In this document: one piece after another, positions 3,000 through 43,815 of the stretch
Numbering within the stretch: the first letter of the stretch is position 1
Layout: the number at the start of each line of letters is the position of its first letter
Source of the DNA: an uncultured Clostridia bacterium
GTDB taxonomy: Bacteria; Bacillota; Clostridia; UBA1381
Length of the DNA: 64,000 nucleotides
Direction of reading: 5' to 3'
NCBI GenBank assembly: GCA_947631235.1
Contig: CANRKO010000002.1
Span: 1-64,000 of the forward strand
Notes under the pieces: model-generated
Databases searched by the model: none
What the model was told of the DNA's origin: nothing
Seen by the model: the letters and a program-made list of their open reading frames with translations, nothing else
Translations under genes and position numbers: made by a program

Positions 3000-4262
3000 T
3001 TAAAACGCGTTTCCGCAGTTCGGGCAGAACTTAGGAGCCGCGCCCGTACCGGTGTAGCCGCACTTAGCGCACGTAAAGCCCTCGGGCTTGGGTTTGCCGC
3101 AGTTTGGGCAGAACTTGCCCGTGTTCTCCGCGCCGCACTCGCATTTCCACGATGTCGGCTGCGGTTTGCCGCAGTTGGAACAGAATTTGCCCGTGTTCTC
3201 CGTGCCGCATTCGCACTTCCAGCCGCCCGCTGCGGGAGCGGACTGCTGTTGCTGTCCCATTGCGAACAGGTTCGCGGCTTGGTTGCCGGCGGCGTTGTTA
3301 GCCATGTTCATGCCGAAAAATCCGCCCATAGCGCCCATACCGCCTTCGTTCTTTGCCGCGTCCTGCATAGCCTGTGACTGTGCGCCGGTAAGGTGCGCGG
3401 CAGCCATGCTCGGGTCGCGCAAAGCGGCGTTGCGCTGGATCTCCTTAATCATCTTCTCGTCCTCTTCGGAGGCGTTTACGCTCGATATTCCGAATACGAC
3501 GATTTCTATACCGCGTCTCTCGCGCCACTCTTTACTAAGTATCTCGTTGAGCGCCTGTGAAATTTCCGTTGTGTGAGCCGGCAGCGCACTGTAACGCACG
3601 CCCATCTCGGAAATTTTCGCGAACGCGGGCTGCAGCGCGGTGAGCAGTTCCGTTTTAAGCTGACTGTCAATCGCGTCGCGCTTGTACGCGTCCGATATGT
3701 TGCCGCACACGTTCGTGTAGAACAAAATCGGGTCGGTAAGCTTGTACGAATACTCGCCGTGGCAGCGAATGGCTATATCCACGTCCAGACCTATGTTCTT
3801 GTCAACCACGCGGAACGGCACGGGGCTGGGCGTACCGTACTTGTTTCCGACGATTTCCTTTGTGTTAAAGTAGTACACTCTCTGATCCTTCGCCGGCTCG
3901 CCGCCGAACGTGAAACGCTTGCCGAGCTGCTCGAAGGTTGCTTTGATAGTTTCCTTCAGATTGCCGTAGAACAGGCTCGGCTCGGTCGATGTGTCGTACA
4001 CAAACTCGCCCGGCTCGGCGCATACCTCGACGACCTTGCCCTGGTCTACGATAACCATGCACTGACCGTCGTTTACCGCGACGATAGAGCCGTTCGATAT
4101 AATGTTGTCGTCGCCGTGCTTGTTTGAACTGCGCTTACCCTCGCGCTTTGCTCCCTTTACCGCGAGCGTGTCGGCGTCAAGAGCCTCACAGTAGAAATAA
4201 TCTCTCCATGAATCGGCGAGTACGCCCGCAAGCGCGCCGACTCCGGCTTTTAAAAGTCCCAT
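3000..4262 (-). CDS. SPFH/virion-core-type protein with C-terminal zinc ribbons (YdjI-like)
   Basis: The 420-residue protein has an SPFH-type N-terminal two-thirds (residues about 20-280) like Bacillus subtilis YdjI. A Met/Ala/Gln-rich linker follows, then three zinc ribbons: WKCECGTENTGKFCSNCGK, WKCECGAENTGKFCPNCGK and FTCAKCGYTGTGAAPKFCPNC. YdjI belongs to the pspA operon of B. subtilis and works with YdjG and YdjH in envelope-stress tolerance at the membrane. Here it is the last gene of a four-gene run that also holds YdjG-like and YdjH-like proteins. The start ATG follows AAAGGAGA. Confidence 0.82.
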   Translation of the reverse strand: MGLLKAGVGALAGVLADSWRDYFYCEALDADTLAVKGAKREGKRSSNKHGDDNIISNGSIVAVNDGQCMVIVDQGKVVEVCAEPGEFVYDTSTEPSLFYGNLKETIKATFEQLGKRFTFGGEPAKDQRVYYFNTKEIVGNKYGTPSPVPFRVVDKNIGLDVDIAIRCHGEYSYKLTDPILFYTNVCGNISDAYKRDAIDSQLKTELLTALQPAFAKISEMGVRYSALPAHTTEISQALNEILSKEWRERRGIEIVVFGISSVNASEEDEKMIKEIQRNAALRDPSMAAAHLTGAQSQAMQDAAKNEGGMGAMGGFFGMNMANNAAGNQAANLFAMGQQQQSAPAAGGWKCECGTENTGKFCSNCGKPQPTSWKCECGAENTGKFCPNCGKPKPEGFTCAKCGYTGTGAAPKFCPNCGNAF

Positions 4263-36697: not shown

Positions 36698-36774
36698 CGG
36701 GATGTAGCGCAGTTTGGTAGCGCATCCGGTTTGGGACCGGAGGGCCGCAGGTTCAAATCCTGTCATCCCGACCA
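36698..36774 (+). tRNA. tRNA-Pro (anticodon TGG)
   Basis: Acceptor CGGGATG/CATCCCG, anticodon loop TTTGGGA between CCGG stems, T-arm GGTTCAAATCC, encoded CCA. It is first in a four-tRNA cluster. Confidence 0.93.
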
Positions 36775-36792
36775 ATATATCCAAACGGTAAT

Positions 36793-36868
36793 GGGAGTTT
36801 AGCTCAGCTGGGAGAGCGTCTGCCTTACAAGCAGGATGTCACAGGTTCGAGCCCTGTAACTCCCACCA
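36793..36868 (+). tRNA. tRNA-Val (anticodon TAC)
   Basis: Acceptor GGGAGTT/AACTCCC, anticodon loop CTTACAA, T-arm GGTTCGAGCC, encoded CCA. Confidence 0.93.
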
Positions 36869-36890
36869 ATCCACTTTAAAAACGGATTGT

Positions 36891-36966
36891 GCTGGTGTAG
36901 CTCAATTGGTAGAGCAGCTGATTTGTAATCAGCAGGTCGCGGGTTCGAGTCCCATCACCAGCTCCA
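36891..36966 (+). tRNA. tRNA-Thr (anticodon TGT)
   Basis: Acceptor GCTGGTG/CACCAGC, anticodon loop TTTGTAA, T-arm GGTTCGAGTCC, encoded CCA. Confidence 0.93.
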
Positions 36967-36970
36967 ATAC

Positions 36971-37055
36971 GGGAGAGTTCCCGAGTGGCCAAAGGGGGCA
37001 GACTGTAAATCTGTTGTCTTCGACTTCAATGGTTCGAATCCATTCTCTCCCACCA
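36971..37055 (+). tRNA. tRNA-Tyr (anticodon GTA), prophage insertion point
   Basis: An 85-nt class II tRNA with a long variable arm, acceptor GGGAGAG/CTCTCCC, anticodon loop CTGTAAA and encoded CCA. The integrase gene ends 21 bp after it, which marks its 3' end as the probable attachment site. The exact core cannot be defined because the other prophage end is outside the window. Confidence 0.93.
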
Positions 37056-37061
37056 AATAAC

Positions 37062-37091
37062 AAACAGACCGCATAACTATGCGGTCTGTTT
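37062..37091. terminator. Bidirectional hairpin between the tRNA cluster and int
   Basis: AAACAGACCGCATA and TATGCGGTCTGTTT pair perfectly (14 bp, 2-base loop). The int stop codon lies inside the stem, so it can end both converging transcripts. Confidence 0.75.
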
Positions 37092-38285
37092 GCTTGTATA
37101 CACGTTTTTTACACGTAATTTATATCTTTTTTTGTTTTCCGTGATTAAATTTAGCGCGGTAACAGCCCTGTCCTCCTCTTTTGGGTAGAGGTGGGAGTAG
37201 GTATTCCATGTGATTTCGACCTTGGCGTGCCCGAGGCGGCGAGCGATTTCCTGTATGTTGATGCCGCAGTATGCCAGATATGACGCGTGGCTATGTCTGA
37301 AATCGTGTATACGGATTTTTTTCAGCCCTGCCGCTGACGCATATTTCTTATTGCGGTTTTCGAGGGTGCTGTCCCTTACGCAGGTTTTACCACCGCATAT
37401 TCGCCAGTCGTCCGAAAACCCCGCCATGCCCTGACAGCGTTTCAAATGCTCGTTAAGCACATTTTTTAATTGGACAGGTATTTTTATGTCACGGACGGAA
37501 TTTTTGTTTTTTGGCGGCGTTTCACGGTCGTCGCCGCGTAATTTCTGTGTAATGCTTTTAGTTACGTGTATAATATCCCCGTCAATATCCGTCCATTTGA
37601 GCGCGTAAATTTCGCCCTTTCGCATACCGGTATAAAACGCAATACTGAAAAACACATAGAAATTCCACTCGTAAATACTATTGGTTACGCTCTCCGATTG
37701 CTCGGCTTGTTCGCGTGCGGCGGCAATGAATTTCAAAAATTCGTCAGCGGTGTAAAATTCGATTTTTTTCTTTATGCTGTACGCGTCCTTAAAATTTTCC
37801 GTCGCAAACAGCGGATTGCGGGGCAGATATTCCATTTTGACGGCGTAATTCAGCACGGCGCGCAATTCACAGTACGCGCTTTGTTTAGTCCGTAGTGACA
37901 AATGCTCGCCGGTGCTTTTCGTCATTTCCTCAACTTCCGCTTTCCATTTTTGCAGGATCGGCGTATTCAGTTTGTCAATTCTATATTCGCCCAAAGAGGG
38001 CAGTACGTAATAATTCAGCCTGCGTCTGATTTTGTCCAATGAACTTTCGCGAATTTCATATCTTTTCATGGATAGGTATTCTTCGGCGAGCTCGCCGAGG
38101 GTTATTTTCTTTATCGTTTCTTCTTTTAAGTCGCGCATGAGACGACTCTCAAGCTCCTTTGCAGCGTCCTTGCCGTAGGCGACGCGGTCAAGCTGCTTTT
38201 GTACGCCGAGGTTATCTGTGTAATTTATCCTGACGCGGTACTTCTGTAAGCCGTCCTTCTTGCCGTCCATTTTATAAATTGGCAT
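37077..38285 (-). CDS. int: Phage tyrosine integrase
   Basis: The 402-residue recombinase has an N-terminal arm-binding domain (about 1-55), a SAM-like core-binding domain (about 60-165) and a catalytic domain. The full set of active-site residues is visible: Arg222 (GMRKGEIYALKW), His327 and Arg330 (RIHDFRHSHASYL), His353 (LGHAKVEI) and the nucleophile Tyr363 (NTYSHLY). It would integrate the phage at the adjacent tRNA-Tyr. The start follows AAGGAGTG. Confidence 0.93.
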   Translation of the reverse strand: MPIYKMDGKKDGLQKYRVRINYTDNLGVQKQLDRVAYGKDAAKELESRLMRDLKEETIKKITLGELAEEYLSMKRYEIRESSLDKIRRRLNYYVLPSLGEYRIDKLNTPILQKWKAEVEEMTKSTGEHLSLRTKQSAYCELRAVLNYAVKMEYLPRNPLFATENFKDAYSIKKKIEFYTADEFLKFIAAAREQAEQSESVTNSIYEWNFYVFFSIAFYTGMRKGEIYALKWTDIDGDIIHVTKSITQKLRGDDRETPPKNKNSVRDIKIPVQLKNVLNEHLKRCQGMAGFSDDWRICGGKTCVRDSTLENRNKKYASAAGLKKIRIHDFRHSHASYLAYCGINIQEIARRLGHAKVEITWNTYSHLYPKEEDRAVTALNLITENKKRYKLRVKNVYTSKQTA

Positions 38286-38414: not shown

Positions 38415-38473
38415 AGCATAGCAAGGTGCAAGCTTGCGTAGCGTAACAAAGGCGGTCGGGGGATTTTTTTATT

Positions 38474-38701
38474 TTACTGTAAACCAAGCTCTTTCATGGC
38501 ATCTTCGTTTGAAACAAATATTTTGCAGTCGGGATTGACCTCTGTTTCTCGAAGCATGGCGATGTCAACATCGTCCGGCTCAACTTCGCCTATATCATCC
38601 CATGACGGGAAATTATCAATAATAATTTTCCAAAGAGCGTTTGCGTCTTTTTCGCTCATAACAGTTACAGCTCCCAAAATTCTTTCTTTTATATTTGACA
38701 T
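38474..38701 (-). CDS. Probable antitoxin, second gene of the RelE-type pair
   Basis: The 75-residue acidic protein (MSNIKERILGAVTVMSEKDA ... ISVSNEDAMKELGLQ-like end) lies 11 bp downstream of a RelE/ParE toxin and is read in the same direction. Position, size and charge fit an antitoxin, although the toxin-first order is the less common one. I do not recognise a DNA-binding domain with confidence. The ATG at 38701 follows AGGAGTG; a GTG 9 bp further up is less well placed. Confidence 0.6.
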   Translation of the reverse strand: MSNIKERILGAVTVMSEKDANALWKIIIDNFPSWDDIGEVEPDDVDIAMLRETEVNPDCKIFVSNEDAMKELGLQ

Positions 38702-38712
38702 AATAATCACTC

Positions 38713-38952
38713 CTATCTTTGCTTGTAAATTTCGCCGCGAGAGCCTATTTTCTCGATATATAATATATTTCCCTGTCTGTCAAATATCACTCTGAAATCA
38801 CCGACACGCAACCGATATTTGGAAATGCTGCCTTGAAATTTTTTAACATCACCATTCGGCAGGTTATTGATCGCATTCACTATCCGCTCTTTTGTGCTTT
38901 TGTCCTGACGATTTAAAAACTTTATCGCTTGTCGTGAGTAATTTACCGTCAA
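38713..38952 (-). CDS. RelE/ParE-family toxin
   Basis: The 79-residue protein has the compact RelE/ParE pattern: YSRQAIKFLNRQDKSTKERI, then a central ISKYRLRVGDFRVIFDRQG and the end ILYIEKIGSRGEIYKQR. Relatives cut mRNA at the ribosome or poison gyrase. Start is a TTG behind GAAGGGA, because no in-frame ATG is available after the upstream stop. Its partner would be the following small gene. A toxin-antitoxin pair next to int may stabilise the prophage. Confidence 0.8.
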   Translation of the reverse strand: MTVNYSRQAIKFLNRQDKSTKERIVNAINNLPNGDVKKFQGSISKYRLRVGDFRVIFDRQGNILYIEKIGSRGEIYKQR

Positions 38953-39023
38953 TATTTATCATTCCCTTCATGTAAAATATATAATAAATTTATTTATAAT
39001 CCCATTTACAGGGAATATAAGAC

Positions 39024-39470
39024 TTACTTTGAATTTGTAGGTATTTGTCGTTCTTGCCTTAATTCATTGAGTATATCGTCTGATATATCGCCGGCTACAA
39101 CAGATTTGTATTTGTCAGATTTTAACATCTGCTTCATTTCGCCTCGTATTTCAGCTTTATCTTCTATATCAAGATGCTTGTACATATATAATATAAATTG
39201 GTCAGGATCTATCTTGTTAGGACTAATAACACCCGGGATTATGATGTTATACTTATCGTCACTTTTCCCTAAAACCCATTCGGGATTTACTCCTAAATAA
39301 TATGCTATTGATTCAACAACAGGTAATTTAAGACGTTTTATTTTCCCTTGTTCATACCGGGCGATAGTAGAGGCGGCAACATTTATAGCATTTGATACAT
39401 CTATTTGTTTCAGTTGTTGCTCCTTCCGAGCTTCTTTTAATCTTTCGCCAATCAATCTATTATTAAGCAT
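39024..39470 (-). CDS. cI-like phage repressor
   Basis: The 148-residue protein has an N-terminal XRE helix-turn-helix (LIGERLKEARKEQQLKQIDV, AASTIARYEQGKIKRLKLPV) and a C-terminal helical domain without the Ser/Lys autoprotease motif of LexA-like cI proteins. Induction therefore may not be through self-cleavage. It diverges from the cro-like gene across a region with three TTGCnnnnnGCAA operators. The ATG at 39470 follows GGAGG. Confidence 0.83.
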   Translation of the reverse strand: MLNNRLIGERLKEARKEQQLKQIDVSNAINVAASTIARYEQGKIKRLKLPVVESIAYYLGVNPEWVLGKSDDKYNIIIPGVISPNKIDPDQFILYMYKHLDIEDKAEIRGEMKQMLKSDKYKSVVAGDISDDILNELRQERQIPTNSK

Positions 39471-39560: not shown

Positions 39561-39589
39561 TTGACAAGAAGAAAATCAAGTGTTATAAT
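39561..39589 (+). promoter_or_regulatory. Promoter of the cro-like gene
   Basis: Consensus TTGACA (39561-39566), 17-bp spacer, TATAAT (39584-39589). O2 abuts it upstream and O3 covers its start region. Confidence 0.88.
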
Positions 39590-39631: not shown

Positions 39632-39847
39632 ATGATAAATTCAAATAAAATAAAAGGACGTCTAAGAGAATTGAATTTAACTCAAAAGGACGCAGCAGAA
39701 GCTCTTGGTATCGCTCAATCGACTATGGCGCAGAAACTCAATGGTACTCGACCTATGACGATCTACGAAGCAGAAGCATTAGCAGAATTATTAGAAATTG
39801 AGGATATGCAATATGGAGTATATTTTTTTAATCGAAAAATTGCATAG
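39632..39847 (+). CDS. Cro-like XRE regulator
   Basis: The 71-residue protein is a single helix-turn-helix domain (KGRLRELNLTQKDAAEALG, IAQSTMAQKLNGTRPMTIYE). It is the first rightward early gene, divergent from the repressor, and starts at an ATG behind AAGGAGG. It should compete for the TTGC-N5-GCAA operators and favour the lytic programme. A fourth operator copy overlaps its last codons. Confidence 0.82.
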   Translation: MINSNKIKGRLRELNLTQKDAAEALGIAQSTMAQKLNGTRPMTIYEAEALAELLEIEDMQYGVYFFNRKIA

Positions 39848-39887: not shown

Positions 39888-40070
39888 TTGAGATGCAAAA
39901 AGTGCAGAAGTGAGATTGATAAAAGTGCCAATTTCTGCAAATTCTGTGGGACAAAACAAAATTCAATTTGTAATTGCTGGATAAAAAAAGAGCCGTATAA
40001 TTGCGGTCAGGAAAAGTGTCCGGGATACAAGCTCTTTAATTTGGAACGCAGTGAAAAAGCTACTTCATAA
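39888..40070 (+). CDS. Small zinc-ribbon protein
   Basis: The 60-residue product has KCRSEIDKSANFCKFCGTKQ, forming a CxxC...CxxC ribbon, and two or three more cysteines further on (CNCW, CGQEKCPGY). It starts with TTG behind AAAGGAGGG; an ATG three bases on is in another frame. It is read from the cro promoter and overlaps the end of the convergent DUF2321 gene by 11 bp. Function is unknown. Confidence 0.6.
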   Translation: MRCKKCRSEIDKSANFCKFCGTKQNSICNCWIKKEPYNCGQEKCPGYKLFNLERSEKATS

Positions 40071-40527
40071 TAAGTTTAACCGCTAATTCACAGCCGAAAT
40101 CAATAATAAATTGCTTGAGCGCATCGGCGGTGAAACTTTCTGCAGAAGGCAGCAGTTTTTTTGTTATAATTCCTGCAAGCCGTGTTTTGGGGGTCTCTGA
40201 TACAATATCAGGTAATGAATCATTTAGTTTTGTTTTTTCTGATTCAGATAATGACGAGTCTTCATAAATCATTGCGGCGGCCACCTCTAATGCTGAAGCT
40301 GTCCACGGATATGGTTGCCCACAGTTGTAACAGTATTTAGGAACAATATACTTTTTTGCCGATACGAAGCCTGAAGTGTTTTCTTTGCCGTGAATCGGCA
40401 TACCGCAGGATGGGCAGCAGGATATATTCGGCGCACCGCATATTTCGCAGAATTTTTCACCTACGATATTGTTATGGCTAATTGTGTGACCGTTTTCACA
40501 AATAGTCGCATTATAGTAATTTGACAT
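40060..40527 (-). CDS. DUF2321-like zinc-ribbon protein
   Basis: The 155-residue protein has the DUF2321 layout: ATICENGHTISHN, FCEICGAPNISCCPSCGMPI and YCYNCGQPYPWT in the first 75 residues, then a helical tail (about 80-155). Function of the family is unknown. It is the leftward gene of the first bidirectional unit of the small-gene array; its promoter and inverted repeat match those of the other three units. The ATG at 40527 follows AAAGGAG. Confidence 0.75.
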   Translation of the reverse strand: MSNYYNATICENGHTISHNNIVGEKFCEICGAPNISCCPSCGMPIHGKENTSGFVSAKKYIVPKYCYNCGQPYPWTASALEVAAAMIYEDSSLSESEKTKLNDSLPDIVSETPKTRLAGIITKKLLPSAESFTADALKQFIIDFGCELAVKLIMK

Positions 40528-40528
40528 T

Positions 40529-40578
40529 ATAATCATCTCCTTTGAGTTGATTATAACATAATATAACAAAAATTTCAA
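40529..40578 (-). promoter_or_regulatory. Array unit 1: leftward promoter with inverted repeat
   Basis: On the minus strand TTGAAA (40573-40578), 17-bp spacer, TATAAT (40550-40555). The inverted repeat ATAATCA (40529-40535) and TGATTAT (40548-40554) reaches from the -10 to the ribosome site of the DUF2321 gene. It is a shorter version of the repeats at 40993, 41593 and 42290. Confidence 0.7.
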
Positions 40579-40639
40579 GCGGTGGTAAGCCGCGAGGCGG
40601 AAAGGCGCGGACGCGGCGTAGGGAAGGAGTGAGGGAAAG
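40571..40639 (+). repeat. Array leader copy 1
   Basis: Contains the stem GCCGCG (40589-40594)/CGCGGC (40612-40617) followed by GGGAAGGAGTGAGGGAA and the start of the next gene. It is one of eight related leaders between 40.57 and 43.21 kb. Confidence 0.75.
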
Positions 40640-40798
40640 ATGAGCGAGAATGAGATTGATTTAACAAAAGAGGCTTGTAAGTTAGTTATCTCAGCGGTAG
40701 ATATGCTATCAGAGATAAAAAAAACACAGCCGGAACGCTTCTTAGATTACGCACCGGCAGTGTTACGGATGATTATTGATTATATCAATAATATTTGA
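40640..40798 (+). CDS. Small array protein (52 aa)
   Basis: The frame starts with ATG right after leader copy 1 and encodes 52 residues (MSENEIDLTKEACKLVISAV ... RMIIDYINNI), predicted helical and slightly acidic. No family recognised. Its start is set by GAAGGAG eleven bases upstream. It ends 2 bp before the convergent gene at 40801-40989. Confidence 0.6.
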   Translation: MSENEIDLTKEACKLVISAVDMLSEIKKTQPERFLDYAPAVLRMIIDYINNI

Positions 40799-40800
40799 CA

Positions 40801-40989
40801 TTAGGACATTGTATCTCTTGATATTACACGAGCTTTCGGGCGGTTATCCTGTTTATATTGTATCACGGCATCAGTAACTTTTTGCAGAGTTTCAAAGTAT
40901 GTCATTACAAGCTGTTCGGGAGATTGATCCGCAACCTTGTTTTGCAGAATGGTTAGCGTAATATCATGAGCAATTTGCTTAATTTCCAT
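40801..40989 (-). CDS. Small array protein, leftward (62 aa)
   Basis: The 62-residue helical protein (MEIKQIAHDITLTILQNKVA ...) is unrecognised. It is the leftward partner in array unit 2, with a TTGAAA-17-TATAAT promoter and an AAAGGTGG ribosome site inside the inverted repeat. Identical control sequences stand before the genes ending at 41591 and 42289. Confidence 0.6.
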   Translation of the reverse strand: MEIKQIAHDITLTILQNKVADQSPEQLVMTYFETLQKVTDAVIQYKQDNRPKARVISRDTMS

Positions 40990-40992
40990 TTT

Positions 40993-41044
40993 ATAATCAC
41001 CACCTTTCTACGGTGATTATAGCATAAGCAAAAGGAATTTTCAA
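40993..41044 (-). promoter_or_regulatory. Array unit 2: leftward promoter with inverted repeat
   Basis: On the minus strand TTGAAA (41039-41044), 17-bp spacer, TATAAT (41016-41021). ATAATCACC (40993-41001) and GGTGATTAT (41012-41020) form a 9-bp inverted repeat with a 10-bp spacer covering the -10, start site and ribosome site, as expected for an operator. Confidence 0.75.
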
Positions 41045-41095
41045 GCCGCGAGGCGGAAAGGCAACGGACGCGGCGTGAGGGAAGGAGTGAGGGAA
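41041..41095 (+). repeat. Array leader copy 2
   Basis: Stem GCCGCG (41045-41050)/CGCGGC (41069-41074), then GAAGGAGTGAGGGAA and a GTG start at 41096. Confidence 0.75.
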
Positions 41096-41479
41096 GTGGA
41101 TAAAAAGGCAAGGGAAACGAAACCGTATAAAAGCAGTTGGCTGAAAAGCTTTTATACGGCGCGTAATGTATGGTCTGAGGCTATTTTAAGGGCGGTAAAG
41201 GAATATCCGGTAACTCGCAGGGTTCCTCTTGTTCGATTAGTGGGATATGATTCTGCAAGGCGTATTCTTTCAAAAATCGTATTAGTGCATTCAGATTTTT
41301 GTGGAAGGATTTTTTATCGGATAAAGTGTCGAAGTGCATATTTGCATTTGCTTCATCCTTGTATGCACGGACAAGTTCCAAAATATCGTCAACATACATA
41401 TCATCAATGTCTGAATTACCGTCTTTCAAATGCTGATAAAGACTCTTTGCATCATCAGGAACGAACACATCAAACGTAA
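41096..41479 (+). CDS. Doubtful array frame overlapping the opposite-strand gene
   Basis: A GTG behind leader copy 2 opens a frame of 127 codons whose first 28 or so codons (VDKKARETKPYKSSWLKSFY ...) lie clear of other genes. The remainder overlaps the better supported leftward gene 41181-41591 and has the look of an antisense shadow. I infer either a truncated small gene or a short real peptide with a run-on end. Confidence 0.3.
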   Translation: MDKKARETKPYKSSWLKSFYTARNVWSEAILRAVKEYPVTRRVPLVRLVGYDSARRILSKIVLVHSDFCGRIFYRIKCRSAYLHLLHPCMHGQVPKYRQHTYHQCLNYRLSNADKDSLHHQERTHQT

Positions 41480-41591
41480 AGAACCCATCATCATCTATCA
41501 CGGTACAATCTGTAGAGTATAAATCCGGATGTTCCAGATAGTACGAAAGTACAGACATAACAATATTTTTTTGAAAATCATCTAATATCAT
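41181..41591 (-). CDS. Array protein, leftward (136 aa)
   Basis: The 136-residue acidic protein (MILDDFQKNIVMSVLSYYLE ... TVIDDDGFFTFDVFVPDDAK) has no recognised domain. Its acidity and size are reminiscent of DNA-mimic or inhibitor proteins, but that is only a hint. It is the leftward gene of array unit 3, with ATG at 41591 behind AAAGGTGG; the GTG four codons upstream lies inside the inverted repeat. Confidence 0.6.
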   Translation of the reverse strand: MILDDFQKNIVMSVLSYYLEHPDLYSTDCTVIDDDGFFTFDVFVPDDAKSLYQHLKDGNSDIDDMYVDDILELVRAYKDEANANMHFDTLSDKKSFHKNLNALIRFLKEYALQNHIPLIEQEEPCELPDIPLPPLK

Positions 41592-41592
41592 T

Positions 41593-41644
41593 ATAATCAC
41601 CACCTTTCTACGGTGATTATAGCATAGGTAAAAGGAATTTTCAA
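41593..41644 (-). promoter_or_regulatory. Array unit 3: leftward promoter with inverted repeat
   Basis: On the minus strand TTGAAA (41639-41644), 17-bp spacer, TATAAT (41616-41621). ATAATCACC (41593-41601)/GGTGATTAT (41612-41620) is identical to unit 2. Confidence 0.75.
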
Positions 41645-41695
41645 GCCACGAGACGGAAAGGCAACAGACGCGGCATGAGGGAAGGAGCGAGGGAA
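41641..41695 (+). repeat. Array leader copy 3
   Basis: GCCACG (41645-41650) faces CGCGGC (41669-41674), so one pair of the stem is lost in this copy. GAAGGAGCGAGGGAA and GTG at 41696 follow. Confidence 0.7.
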
Positions 41696-41833
41696 GTGGA
41701 TTTAGAAAAACTGAAACAGCTATCGCAACCGTTGATTGAGTATATCAAGATAAATTGCAATCCGTATACGCGAATAGTCATATCGGATTCAGACGTGAGA
41801 GTTGTAGAAGATGTGGCGTACATACCAAAATAA
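41696..41833 (+). CDS. Small array protein (45 aa)
   Basis: A GTG-started frame of 45 residues: MDLEKLKQLSQPLIEYIKIN, a Cys-Asn-Pro turn, then RIVISDSDVRVVEDVAYIPK. The shape (helix, then two beta strands) recurs, as I recall, in short proteins of many Firmicutes phages, but no function is known. It follows leader copy 3 exactly and is followed 7 bp later by leader copy 4. Confidence 0.65.
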   Translation: MDLEKLKQLSQPLIEYIKINCNPYTRIVISDSDVRVVEDVAYIPK

Positions 41834-41840
41834 TATGAGA

Positions 41841-41898
41841 AATTTCAAGCCGCGAGGCGGAAAGGCAACAGACGCGGCATAGGGAAGGAGTGAGGGAA
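41841..41898 (+). repeat. Array leader copy 4
   Basis: Stem GCCGCG (41849-41854)/CGCGGC (41873-41878), then GGGAAGGAGTGAGGGAA and GTG at 41899. This copy lacks the leftward promoter part. Confidence 0.75.
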
Positions 41899-42078
41899 GT
41901 GGATGTATTAGAGTTTTTCAGGAAACTAAAACAACACTGTGAACAGTTTTCCGGTGGAGACGGGAACCGCTGTGAACAGTGCAGTTTTAGAGAATTGTGT
42001 TTTACTCCGCCGATTACTCTGACAGATGAGATTGTGGCTCGAAGTCTGGAGCGTCTGGCGGAATTTCAATCGGGGTGA
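41899..42078 (+). CDS. Small cysteine-containing array protein (59 aa)
   Basis: The 59-residue product (GTG start after leader copy 4) has an acidic helical start and the cysteine pattern FSGGDGNRCEQCSFRELCF, suggesting a small metal site. No family recognised. Its end overlaps the convergent gene 42014-42289. Confidence 0.6.
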   Translation: MDVLEFFRKLKQHCEQFSGGDGNRCEQCSFRELCFTPPITLTDEIVARSLERLAEFQSG

Positions 42079-42289
42079 CGGTTAAGAGTTTGCAAAGACC
42101 GCCGTGCGCCCGCCCGGAACAATAAGAACGACCGACTCCCGTCATGTTGCGGCTGCAAGTTCGTTTTATTAGGCGATACATATTCTTTTCAGGAATGTAT
42201 TGATATGTTGATGTGCAGTCAACATACACTTCTTTCCTGTAACAGCGCCTTTTCCGATAAGAATATTTGAATTCGGGATAGTCAGGCAT
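42014..42289 (-). CDS. Array protein, leftward (91 aa)
   Basis: The 91-residue basic, Tyr/Arg-rich product (MPDYPEFKYSYRKRRCYRKE ... ) has several cysteines (RTCSRNMTGVGRSYCSGRA). It is unrecognised. It belongs to array unit 4, whose inverted repeat is identical to units 2 and 3, with the ATG at 42289 right behind AAAGGTGGTG. Confidence 0.5.
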   Translation of the reverse strand: MPDYPEFKYSYRKRRCYRKEVYVDCTSTYQYIPEKNMYRLIKRTCSRNMTGVGRSYCSGRAHGGLCKLLTVTPIEIPPDAPDFEPQSHLSE

Positions 42290-42341
42290 ATAATCACCAC
42301 CTTTCTACGGTGATTATAGCATAAGCAAAAGGAATTTTCAA
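42290..42341 (-). promoter_or_regulatory. Array unit 4: leftward promoter with inverted repeat
   Basis: On the minus strand TTGAAA (42336-42341), 17-bp spacer, TATAAT (42313-42318). ATAATCACC (42290-42298)/GGTGATTAT (42309-42317) matches units 2 and 3. Confidence 0.75.
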
Positions 42342-42385
42342 GCCGCGAGGCGGAAAGGCAACGGACGCGGCGTGAGGAGGTATAT
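42338..42385 (+). repeat. Array leader copy 5
   Basis: Stem GCCGCG (42342-42347)/CGCGGC (42366-42371), but the ribosome site differs (GAGGAGGTATATATG) and leads to an ATG, as if the gene part had been swapped with its own start region. Confidence 0.7.
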
Positions 42386-42586
42386 ATGCGGAAAGTACAG
42401 TACATGTTGGCAGATTACATGAAAAAGAACGGCATTACAATTTCATTTGTTGCAGATGCGGCAGGAATCAAATATGAATTGCTGAGACGTTCGTTGAATG
42501 GAAATCGTGTTATGACTGCGGACGAACTTGCGGCGATATTGATGTCAACAAATATCACATTCAAAGATATTTTAGGTAGGGACTAA
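42386..42586 (+). CDS. Small XRE-type helix-turn-helix protein
   Basis: The 66-residue protein is one helix-turn-helix domain (LADYMKKNGITISFVADAAG, IKYELLRRSLNGNRVMTADE). It could bind the inverted repeats of the array or serve as a second antirepressor; both are guesses. It follows leader copy 5 with an AGGAGG site. It is the only recognisable regulator inside the array. Confidence 0.72.
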   Translation: MRKVQYMLADYMKKNGITISFVADAAGIKYELLRRSLNGNRVMTADELAAILMSTNITFKDILGRD

Positions 42587-42625
42587 CCCATATCTTGTGC
42601 ATCTACCCCATGTACGAGAAGAATT

Positions 42626-42644
42626 ATACTACACGCTGTAGTAT
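42626..42644. promoter_or_regulatory. Palindrome between array genes
   Basis: ATACTACA and TGTAGTAT pair around CGC. It lies in the 42587-42710 gap, which otherwise shows no gene; a second short inverted repeat (AATGAC/GTCATT) follows at 42651-42676. Probably a binding site or small structured RNA. Confidence 0.4.
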
Positions 42645-42710
42645 GGCGTCAATGACAAACACATTGCATAGTCATTAAAAAAATATTACGCCAGCAAAGG
42701 AAAAGGTATT

Positions 42711-42763
42711 ACAGCCGCGGGGTGGAAAGACAACAGACGCGGCATAGGGAAGGAGTGAGGGAA
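42711..42763 (+). repeat. Array leader copy 6
   Basis: Stem GCCGCG (42714-42719)/CGCGGC (42738-42743) is kept although the loop has several changes. GGGAAGGAGTGAGGGAA and GTG at 42764 follow. Confidence 0.72.
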
Positions 42764-42896
42764 GTGAGCGAAAAAAATAACAGTACGTGAAGCCGTTGAC
42801 ATGATTTATAAAAGGGTTAAAATGTTACAACTTATTGTAGCAATTATGATAGTATCAGATCTCGTATGCGTCGTTATAAACTTAATAAAAAGTTAA
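42764..42896 (+). pseudogene. Frameshifted small membrane-protein gene
   Basis: The GTG behind leader copy 6 opens a frame that stops after eight codons. Removing one A from the A7 run at 42771-42777 joins it to a 43-residue frame ending at 42896 with a membrane helix (MLQLIVAIMIVSDLVCVVIN). Either the gene is broken, or the homopolymer was misread, or ribosomes slip here. Confidence 0.5.
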
Positions 42897-42926
42897 CGGA
42901 CGCGGCGTAGGGAAGGAGTGAGGGAA
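42895..42926 (+). repeat. Array leader copy 7 (3' half only)
   Basis: ACGGACGCGGCGT then GGGAAGGAGTGAGGGAA and GTG at 42927. The left half of the stem is missing; the leader begins within the stop codon of the preceding gene. Confidence 0.65.
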
Positions 42927-43163
42927 GTGGATATTATAGAGGCAACAAGAACAGCAATGAAGGAAGGAAAAGGTATAATTAATATGGGATGGCAGAGTCC
43001 TAAATCATACTACCTTTTGCCAACCAACACTACTGATTGCTTTTTGTTAACACCTATAGGCTTTTCTGCTACTGAAGGTCGAGCTTGTCCTCGTTGGAAT
43101 CCTCGTGCGTGCGATATATTATCTGACAAGTGGGAAATCTACGAAGATATAATTAGCGATTAA
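42927..43163 (+). CDS. DUF2829/Tad2-like protein
   Basis: The 78-residue GTG-started protein has the DUF2829 pattern: an N-terminal IIEATRTAMKEGKGIINMGW (compare EALkalKEGKkv...W in the family), a beta-rich middle (SYYLLPTN, CFLLTPIG), and the end RWNPRACDILSDKWEIYED matching the conserved WxPxxxDxLxxDWE tail. Tad2, an anti-Thoeris protein that sequesters the gcADPR signal, belongs to this family; other members have no known role. It is a typical compact phage early gene and the best functional clue for the array. Confidence 0.62.
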   Translation: MDIIEATRTAMKEGKGIINMGWQSPKSYYLLPTNTTDCFLLTPIGFSATEGRACPRWNPRACDILSDKWEIYEDIISD

Positions 43164-43209
43164 GCCGGAACGAGTAAATGACCTCGGCGTGAGAGAAGGA
43201 GTGAGGGAA
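43162..43209 (+). repeat. Array leader copy 8 (diverged)
   Basis: The stem is reduced to GCCG/CGGC with a changed loop, but GAGAAGGAGTGAGGGAA and a GTG at 43210 are retained. Confidence 0.6.
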
Positions 43210-43299
43210 GTGGACAAGGACTTTTTAATTTTTAGCATAATAGGGTTTATTGTCGGTGCAATTATAATTGGTAGTCTTAAAGCACATGGCGCATTATAA
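43210..43299 (+). CDS. Very small membrane peptide (29 aa)
   Basis: A GTG behind leader copy 8 opens a 29-residue frame dominated by one hydrophobic helix (FLIFSIIGFIVGAIIIGSL) with charged ends. The ribosome site is the same as in the other array genes. A single-pass micropeptide; role unknown. Confidence 0.5.
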   Translation: MDKDFLIFSIIGFIVGAIIIGSLKAHGAL

Positions 43300-43437: not shown

Positions 43438-43464
43438 TTATCATACTTATTTATATTTTGTGGT

Positions 43465-43502
43465 GTTGCGGGTTTCGCAATGGACGTTGTAAAACCCGCA
43501 AC
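43465..43502. other. Strong hairpin before the ParB-region genes
   Basis: GTTGCGGGTTT pairs perfectly with AAACCCGCAAC around a 16-base loop. No T-run follows, so it is a structured RNA or processing site rather than a standard terminator. Confidence 0.45.
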
Positions 43503-43530
43503 GCGCCGGTCCAAAGGCAGGTGATAGGAA

Positions 43531-43815
43531 ATGAAGGTTAAACAGATTACGGATATTGAAACAGCGATACGCATTTATTATCAATACCCCGAAATCGACA
43601 ATAATCAAATACGCGAGCTGTTTGGGAGCATAAGCAGCGGAACGCAGGCACGGTACAAAAAGGCGGTAAAGGATGAGCAGATTAACCGCAACGTCAAGAC
43701 AATGTGCATCGACGCTGTGAACACCGAGGTTGCATATGACGTGTGGGGTATTGATGTTGCGGATTTGGAGCGTCGGCTCAAAAAGCTGAAAAGTTTAGGG
43801 CTGGCGAAAGTGTGA
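43531..43815 (+). CDS. Phage protein of unknown function (94 aa)
   Basis: The helical 94-residue product (MKVKQITDIETAIRIYYQYP ... ) contains a possible helix-turn-helix (EIDNNQIRELFGSISSGTQA) and ends basic. It is the first of a co-directional run to 51708. The ribosome site is AGGTGATAGG. No family recognised. Confidence 0.7.
   Translation: MKVKQITDIETAIRIYYQYPEIDNNQIRELFGSISSGTQARYKKAVKDEQINRNVKTMCIDAVNTEVAYDVWGIDVADLERRLKKLKSLGLAKV

Follow-up and report, generated by a model that had tools for sequence, protein, structure and literature searches.

Repeated two-way control cassettes as a putative exchange platform for accessory genes in temperate phages of Clostridia

How can a phage keep many unrelated tiny genes behind control DNA that hardly changes? 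The question is raised by an array of small genes at positions 40060 to 43299 of a 64,000-nt stretch (here called the window) of contig CANRKO010000002.1 from an uncultured Clostridia bacterium (UBA1381), whose metagenome-assembled genome (MAG) is 86% complete. The window carries a temperate-phage genome with integrase, CI and cro genes, terminase, a phrog_64 portal, and a phrog_422 major head protein. Downstream of cro, the tiny genes are interspersed with four bidirectional cassettes and four one-way leaders. With moderate confidence, we read the array as a modular accessory platform with two halves, namely, a leftward promoter with a Shine-Dalgarno (SD) sequence that would be hidden in read-through RNA and a rightward leader read from the presumed phage promoter PR; gene modules would be exchanged between phages in or next to this DNA.

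The repeats are real and far beyond chance. The 28-bp inverted repeat is exact at 40993, 41593, and 42290 (three matches at ≤3 mismatches versus 0 expected), and a 111-nt cassette is present three times; relative to the reference copy, the other two are at 94% and 86%. The ribosome-binding site (RBS) part, GGGAAGGAGTGAGGGAA, occurs seven times in the window (five exact copies and two with one mismatch) versus 0.05 expected (≤3 mismatches), and all seven of its matches in the MAG of origin at ≤2 mismatches are sites of the array. An earlier note on this DNA had described four leftward promoters, each with an inverted repeat. The leftward promoter TTGAAA-17-TATAAT (11/12, extended −10) is indeed found at all four cassettes, whereas the repeat at 40529 is a related 26-bp form, a diverged relative rather than a copy. 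The same note had let every leader end in one ribosome site and start codon, which was too broad: only six of the eight end in GGGAAGGAGTGAGGGAA plus GTG, two with one mismatch, while the leader at 42340 leads to a different RBS and ATG and that at 40587 leads to ATG. Its placing of every cassette between a leftward and a rightward small gene fails to convince at cassette 2, where the rightward open reading frame (ORF) at 41096 runs antisense to 41181-41591 over most of its length and has no match among the compared array proteins. The gene after the 42712 leader is broken, as its frame closes after eight codons (by eye).

Behind this near-constant DNA, the genes differ between relatives. Arrays are known from MAG contigs, and the sequences compared are related; L and G numbers are our handles for contigs and genomes. 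Within the array, the window and G022 have only cassette and leader DNA in common, in matches of 39 to 119 nt (threshold, at least 35 nt), and this bears out the proposed gene exchange behind constant control DNA. Outside the array, their common DNA comprises the integrase region and stretches within 38452-39212 on the upstream side and 43445-43799, at 89%, on the downstream side. The outcome named beforehand as fatal to that proposal, repeats only in this prophage and without turnover, is not what was found, as relatives carry the repeats with other genes. The last leader of G022 continues into this common downstream DNA with no gene called behind it (the empty slot of the L120 array). The window has three modules in common with G007 (90 to 96%) and one with G027 (97%). 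G007 (L122) is 98% identical over window positions 42998-43212, from inside the Tad2 gene through the 43162 leader, and a different gene begins at the same position after 43212, i.e., the switch lies at the start codon. Leaders in G022 and L009 are followed by this other gene as well. Altogether, the 24 leftward genes fall into 18 families (blastp, E 1e-3) and the 28 automatically called rightward genes into 21; the rightward count is rough, since gene calling passed over window gene 40640, one L120 gene, and the Tad2-type genes that lie where the G007 contigs end, and false ORFs are possible.

The borders of the shared DNA point the same way. Matches of at least 150 nt, with ends at contig edges excluded, gave 68 directed homology ends (each end was counted from both sides, giving 34 distinct ends). 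Control DNA accounts for 20% of the arrays and contains 45 of the 68. Convergent pairs are kept together: 41899/42014 in the window, L121, and L152, and 40640/40801 in the window, L121, and L125. Homology ends at cassettes, convergent pairs that move together, and the empty slot thus uphold the gene-exchange reading. A role of the array as an exchange platform for accessory genes is well supported by these comparisons, and the swaps tend to be bounded by cassettes. Some points weigh against this: 23 of the 68 ends fall outside annotated control DNA (two of them at the 40587 leader, which the pattern missed), and the units are related to each other, so that unit counts are not independent. As the cassettes resemble each other, a match can also run on through one, and the ends do not fix the exact crossover base.

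What, then, do the cassettes do? For the leftward half, we compared 24 units from 12 loci, 23 of which were found by a pattern for the −10 box plus repeat arms and one of which (L132, 6152) came from the inverted-repeat search; one pattern match in L122 was left out, its −10 box being disrupted. TTG lies exactly 17 nt ahead of TATAAT in all 24 units with a varying spacer, and neither TTG nor the distance was part of any search pattern. TG one base before TATAAT (part of the inverted-repeat search pattern) and a long SD after the promoter are likewise found in 24/24. The leftward SD, GAAAGG.GGTGAT, approximates the complement of the 16S rRNA tail GGATCACCTCCTTTCTAAGG from a genome of the same genus, a tail that is matched in 2 of 70 genomes and not in the MAG of origin. 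The 5' arm of the repeat, ATAATCACC, lies ahead of the SD and includes the −10 box; the SD itself falls within the 3' arm. Folding predicted stems of mostly 6 to 12 pairs. With the −10 box and SD held fixed, the hairpin beats 95% of random-7-mer variants in 23 of 29 distinct sequences (13/14 and 10/15). The alleles pair differently, CAACTC with GGAG and CATCTT with GAGG, and the predicted exposure of the SD goes from 0.44 in the native transcript to 0.20 in read-through RNA. The inverted repeat is probably best read as an RNA device of the T4 gene e type, a reading that we hold as part of the whole explanation to be fairly probable. In T4 genes e, soc, 49, and I-TevI, the 5' strand of a hairpin contains the promoter, and in longer transcripts this hairpin conceals the ribosome site (PMC3014915, PMC2988022). 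A parallel with IS10 was set aside, as no passage on the shielding of IS transposases from read-through was found in the papers searched for it. No terminator-like site was identified within 40060-43299, and a need for read-through silencing fits the window array because such sites are missing from it.

Of an operator and an RNA hairpin covering the SD, the hairpin is the more likely reading of the inverted repeat. As a DNA operator, the repeat would let a phage or host repressor control all leftward promoters together in a regulon-like manner. The palindrome does overlap the −10 box and the start point and is identical in several phages, and repeated operator sites have a phage precedent in SPBRE bound by MrpR (PMC10516654). 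However, the distance between the arms varies widely (span from the −10 box to the arm end, 23 to 31 nt; loops, 3 to 12 nt), which speaks against a protein operator. In addition, the left arm is accounted for by the −10 box and SD pairing, and the repressor/cro regions of G022, G007, and G027 differ from that of the window (by eye; no systematic search for a shared regulator gene was made). We therefore regard a shared operator as rather unlikely. A CI operator as the origin of the inverted repeat was considered and rejected, as the operator-like TTGCACAGTGCAA near PR differs from it (by eye).

Several observations weigh against the hairpin itself. Six of the 29 hairpins fail to beat 95% of random 7-mers, and when the 7-mers were permuted rather than random, only 8 of 14 sequences beat 95%. 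A permuted 7-nt spacer gave an SD exposure of 0.22, close to the real 0.20, and this measure therefore does not part the hairpin from its context. Strict counting in one alignment gave 0 compensatory pairs. Among 40 inspected matches to R2, our model of the leftward unit, those at L122 5483 and L156 990 lack the hairpin and that in L197 lacks the SD (none of the three is among the 29 folded sequences), and at L123 6781 the SD lies mainly in the loop. Terminator-like sites (GCCGC-4-GCGGC plus a T-rich tail) precede a unit in L123 and one unit in L152, and read-through would be less at these places. It could be asked whether the repeats are merely good promoter and ribosome-site DNA spread by duplication or recombination, with no further function of hairpin or leader. 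The weak spacer permutation controls and the count of 0 compensatory pairs favor this, as do leader stems that are missing in some copies and a long SD and promoter that explain most conserved columns. It does not account for CACC after the −10 box, which is unneeded for promoter or SD and yet is kept in most units or changed with the pairing preserved, and we judge it improbable.

The rightward half differs in kind. No rightward promoter common to the cassettes and leaders was seen by eye, and the rightward genes are therefore most likely read from PR. The "common control" of the earlier note is right only in part: each leftward gene has its own promoter pattern, and the rightward genes most likely depend on PR read-through. 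Leaders were found at all the sites given for a rightward stem-loop leader, but their predicted 6-bp GC stem is whole in only five of the eight window copies, is mismatched in 41643, and is missing in 42887 and 43162; it is also absent or different in the folded L121 and L156 leaders. As the stem is missing or mismatched in several leaders, the stem-loop is not their constant part.

The kept part is a core, ACGGACGCGGCR, with 30 sites on the rightward strand at ≤2 mismatches to one consensus, 0 on the other strand, and 0.55 in shuffles. Over these 30 sites, departures at codon positions 1, 2, and 3 number 8, 5, and 28; over 33 nt of eight full-length leaders (window, L009, and L120), they number 4, 1, and 12. 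An in-frame stop, which is not part of the pattern, directly follows the core in 26 of the 30 sites. Since the core reads T-D-A-A-stop and some helix-turn-helix (HTH) genes at array heads end likewise (by eye: LFATDAA-stop in L124 and L125, LFSTDVA-stop in L156, and EYLFATDVA-stop in L129), the leader has the look of a remnant, namely, a cro-like gene's 3' end together with the SD that followed it. Telling against such a relic, two columns carry most of the third-codon signal, and the window, L120, L121, and L123 have cro genes that end unlike the leader (by eye). At 3 mismatches, where chance sites enter (6.35 in shuffles), the departures are 18, 26, and 54. A leader peptide in cassette 2 was not apparent, with no in-frame ATG, GTG, or TTG ahead of the core (by eye). 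The stem, whole or mismatched in six window copies, and the z-scores of −3.23 in the best window copy and −3.10 in one L120 copy could instead point to regulation by a structured RNA (an antiterminator, a riboswitch, or a processing site). This is highly improbable given the copies devoid of a proper stem, the remaining window z-scores (−2.16 to +0.55), the lack of any Rfam family at the gathering score, and core variation mostly at third codon positions, which indicates coding ancestry.

Taken as a two-half platform, the array could work as follows; the repeats, promoter pattern, gene turnover, concentration of homology ends at cassettes, and relatives are seen in the sequence, and use of the promoters, action of the hairpin, timing, and the route of recombination are what we infer from it. 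On the leftward side, an extended −10 promoter would be fused to a 5' untranslated region with a long SD. A hairpin would have the −10 box and the bases after it as its 5' arm and the SD as its 3' arm. RNA from the unit's own promoter would lack the 5' arm and be translated, while RNA reading in from the next leftward gene would include it and have its SD hidden. Each leftward gene would thus be expressed only from its own promoter, probably in the lysogen. On the rightward side, the leader, as a cro-like 3' relic plus SD, would serve the gene behind it, most likely read from PR during lytic growth, when repressor levels drop. Recombination in or next to the common leader and promoter DNA would exchange modules between phages, in many cases as a convergent rightward and leftward pair.

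More tentatively, the cassette might be a standard part, a self-insulating two-way slot whose leftward promoter and RBS ignore read-through (for lysogen genes) and whose rightward RBS is fed from PR (for lytic genes). With convergent pairs swapped at the cro-like 3' core, any inserted gene would be expressed correctly whatever its neighbors. The array resembles a natural plug-in platform that serves arms-race genes and suggests a way for temperate phages to go on swapping such genes while their expression stays intact. Through R2, the leftward unit may offer a sequence handle in the search for unknown defence and anti-defence genes, which could be recognized from the control DNA ahead of them rather than from homology. 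Should the hairpin act as proposed, the unit would also be a natural analogue of engineered insulator parts.

Which genes occupy the slots? Tad2-like rightward genes were identified in three arrays: the window, L156 (33.6 bits, PF11195), and G007 (96 to 98% DNA identity). The gene is likely an anti-defence gene (Thoeris anti-defence 2), judging from its Pfam match; PDB Tad2 chains were matched only at E values of 0.08 to 0.67, and PHROGs places the window protein in phrog_643, "transcriptional regulator." The other rightward genes comprise one HTH protein and mostly unknowns. Leftward families include DUF2321, Trypsin_2, DUF2513, and DUF6173. The proposed host-takeover or anti-defence content rests on the Tad2-like genes and, on the leftward side, on Trypsin_2 and some DUF genes; most proteins have no known function. 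The orientation of the genes suggests that lysogeny functions may face leftward and lytic functions rightward. In G007, two contigs overlap at their ends and carry the Tad2 DNA there, a hint that the genome has two copies. The convergent genes 41899/42014 overlap by 65 bp at their 3' ends (42014-42078), and those of L152 overlap by 59 bp at 49 to 67% protein identity.

The platform belongs to temperate phages and is seen mainly in one Clostridia family. R1 is a covariance model of the leader, built from the eight window copies and L009, a contig of a Clostridia MAG. At E 0.01 it had matches in 16 of 70 family genomes, with E values below 1e-6 in five (the genome of origin, G007, G022, G024, and G027). 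Eight of the other 11 were inspected (G006, G060, and G061 being left out): G017 and G028 hold arrays, G010 has only the ribosome site, and five matches are chance-like. Weak R1 matches in L126, L127, L130, L131, L133, and L134 were rejected as chance-like or as having only the ribosome site in common (by eye). The inverted repeat plus five flanking bases (≤3 mismatches) was found in 10 of the 70 genomes at 17 places, compared with 0 matches for the reversed control. R2 matched 17 of 95 genomes of the order at E 0.001 (39 places), and 16 of these are in the family, which places the leftward unit in 16/70 family genomes; the 17th, G076, lacks the SD and is not counted as a member. Over an even sample of the class, R2 matched 7 of 391 genomes at E 1e-5, five in the family and two outside the order (G439 and G310). 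In the latter two, the unit precedes a leftward gene and lies downstream of an HTH gene, and the rightward neighbor in G439 resembles window gene 43531 (all by eye). The leftward gene of L202 (G310) is DUF2513-like, as in L152 (by eye), and its hairpin is the shortest, with a 23-nt span and a 4-nt loop.

In another phage contig, L200 (IMGVR_UViG_2898786852_000001; 379-872), the same layout of HTH gene, convergent pair, and hairpin is found, with no TTG −35 seen at the usual distance (by eye). A blastn search with the 111-nt cassette gave no match among 50,697 phages and 72,556 plasmids, nor did the whole array among the 50,697 phages. The exact leader 17-mer occurs in 0 IMG/VR contigs, R1 gave 0 matches at E 0.05 in 28 of 80 contigs retained from IMG/VR as relatives by the major head protein, and gene 43531 has no relative in IMG/VR. 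In the genome contig collection, the exact leader 20-mer was found in two stretches, L009 and L008. The copy in L008, a Calothrix MAG, is single (3394-3413), and about one such match is expected by chance (rough estimate). In L009 (4473-4671) and L122 (5675-6040), leader-borne genes adjoin head-morphogenesis-type genes (by eye), so that their position is not only after cro.

Is this a known kind of system? PeSL cassettes (those of Arbiol 2010 and Comeau 2014) are reportedly one-way. In the array, by contrast, a leftward promoter and a rightward leader are set back to back, and the phages are temperate Clostridia phages, not myoviruses with a T4-like genome. PeSL promoter-terminator cassettes of T4-like phages are likewise repeated regulatory cassettes in hypervariable regions that mediate gene shuffling (PMC4503421). 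Gene shuffling at cassettes is common to both, and, as a possible counterpart of the PeSL early promoter, a promoter pattern is present in 24/24 units here (as a sequence pattern only), while a counterpart of the PeSL stem-loop terminator is found only in some arrays (L152 and L123) and not in that of the window. Start-associated sequences (SAS) and extended SAS (ESAS) of cluster K mycobacteriophages similarly repeat at the ribosome site before different gene families in the nonstructural half of the genome, some with an inverted repeat (PMC3203893). The 13-bp SAS GGGATAGGAGCCC, located a few nucleotides before start codons, has 0 matches at ≤2 mismatches in the 64-kb window. ESAS lie upstream of the SAS of the same gene, whereas in the cassettes the inverted repeat is part of the control DNA of the oppositely oriented gene and includes a promoter; ESAS hairpins have little support in the view of their authors (PMC3203893).

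What the unit has in common with T4 gene e, a hairpin that covers the SD and has the −10 box in its 5' arm, is found here by prediction only. The T4 cases are late genes and promoters of a lytic phage (PMC3014915, PMC2988022), whereas here a repeated unit with a sigma-70-type extended −10 stands before many unrelated leftward genes of temperate phages. SPBRE of SPbeta is likewise a repeated element at many promoters of one temperate phage, but it is a protein-binding site with a 15-bp motif (PMC10516654); here, the arm spacing varies and genes are exchanged behind the element. By the features examined, the platform is akin to the PeSL and start-associated kinds and a member of neither. No description of a bidirectional cassette of this kind was found among the titles and abstract openings returned by searches of an open-licence library.

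Table 1. Coordinates of the array features and of the prophage genes ahead of them in the window
Feature	Position	Strand	Basis
Integrase	37077-38285		
CI-type repressor gene	39024..39470	−	PHROGs transcriptional regulator/repressor
Presumed PR, TTGACA-17-TATAAT, extended −10, points into array	39561..39589	+	12/12 match
cro-type gene	39632..39847	+	PHROGs transcriptional repressors
Leftward gene 1, DUF2321	40060..40527	−	PF10083, E 2.2e-46
Cassette 1 inverted repeat (26-bp diverged form), −10 arm and SD arm	40529..40554	−	Pattern search and fold
Cassette 1 leftward promoter, TTGAAA-17-TATAAT	40550..40578	−	
Cassette 1 rightward leader, ATG at 40640	40587..40642	+	R1, 69.1 bits (in the model's training set)
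Rightward gene, convergent partner of 40801-40989	40640..40798	+	Pair within DNA common to L121 (91%) and L125 (97%)
Leftward gene 2	40801..40989	−	Family found in 4 arrays
Cassette 2 inverted repeat	40993..41020	−	Exact 28-bp
Cassette 2 leftward promoter	41016..41044	−	
Cassette 2 rightward leader	41043..41099	+	R1, 83.3 bits
Rightward ORF, doubtful gene, mostly antisense to 41181-41591	41096..41479	+	No Pfam or PHROGs match up to E 1
Leftward gene 3	41181..41591	−	ORF
Cassette 3 inverted repeat	41593..41620	−	Exact 28-bp
Cassette 3 leftward promoter	41616..41644	−	
Cassette 3 rightward leader, stem with mismatch	41643..41698	+	R1, 73.2 bits; fold
Rightward gene, phrog_4621 of unknown function	41696..41833	+	E 2.9e-9
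Leader without leftward unit	41847..41901	+	R1, 85.7 bits
Rightward gene, convergent partner of 42014-42289 with 3' overlap	41899..42078	+	Same pair in L121 and L152
Leftward gene 4	42014..42289	−	92% to L121, 49% to L152
Cassette 4 inverted repeat	42290..42317	−	Exact 28-bp
Cassette 4 leftward promoter	42313..42341	−	
Cassette 4 rightward leader, different RBS and ATG	42340..42388	+	R1, 55.6 bits
Rightward gene, Cro/CI-type HTH	42386..42586	+	PF13443, E 9.7e-7
Leader without leftward unit, broken gene behind	42712..42766	+	R1, 78.8 bits
Leader without 5' stem arm	42887..42929	+	R1, 50.4 bits; fold
Rightward gene, Tad2-like	42927..43163	+	PF11195, E 3.2e-9, 37.6 bits versus cut-off of 25
Diverged leader	43162..43212	+	R1, 54.7 bits
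Rightward gene, small hydrophobic protein	43210..43299	+	ORF

The prophage genes follow the order integrase, CI-type repressor, cro-type gene, array, ParB-like gene plus methyltransferase, terminase, portal, minor head, and major head, and the array is located between cro and the small gene at 43531. Four tRNA genes (Pro, Val, Thr, and Tyr) at 36698-37055 adjoin the integrase gene and are a likely attachment site. Between integrase and repressor, a leftward pair (38474-38952 and 38946-39004) has the look of a RelE/ParE-type toxin-antitoxin system (by eye). In L120 (4089-4753), the DNA of this pair and that of other leftward genes are parted by repeated terminator-like plus promoter-like DNA, which is perhaps a second exchange platform on the lysogeny side.

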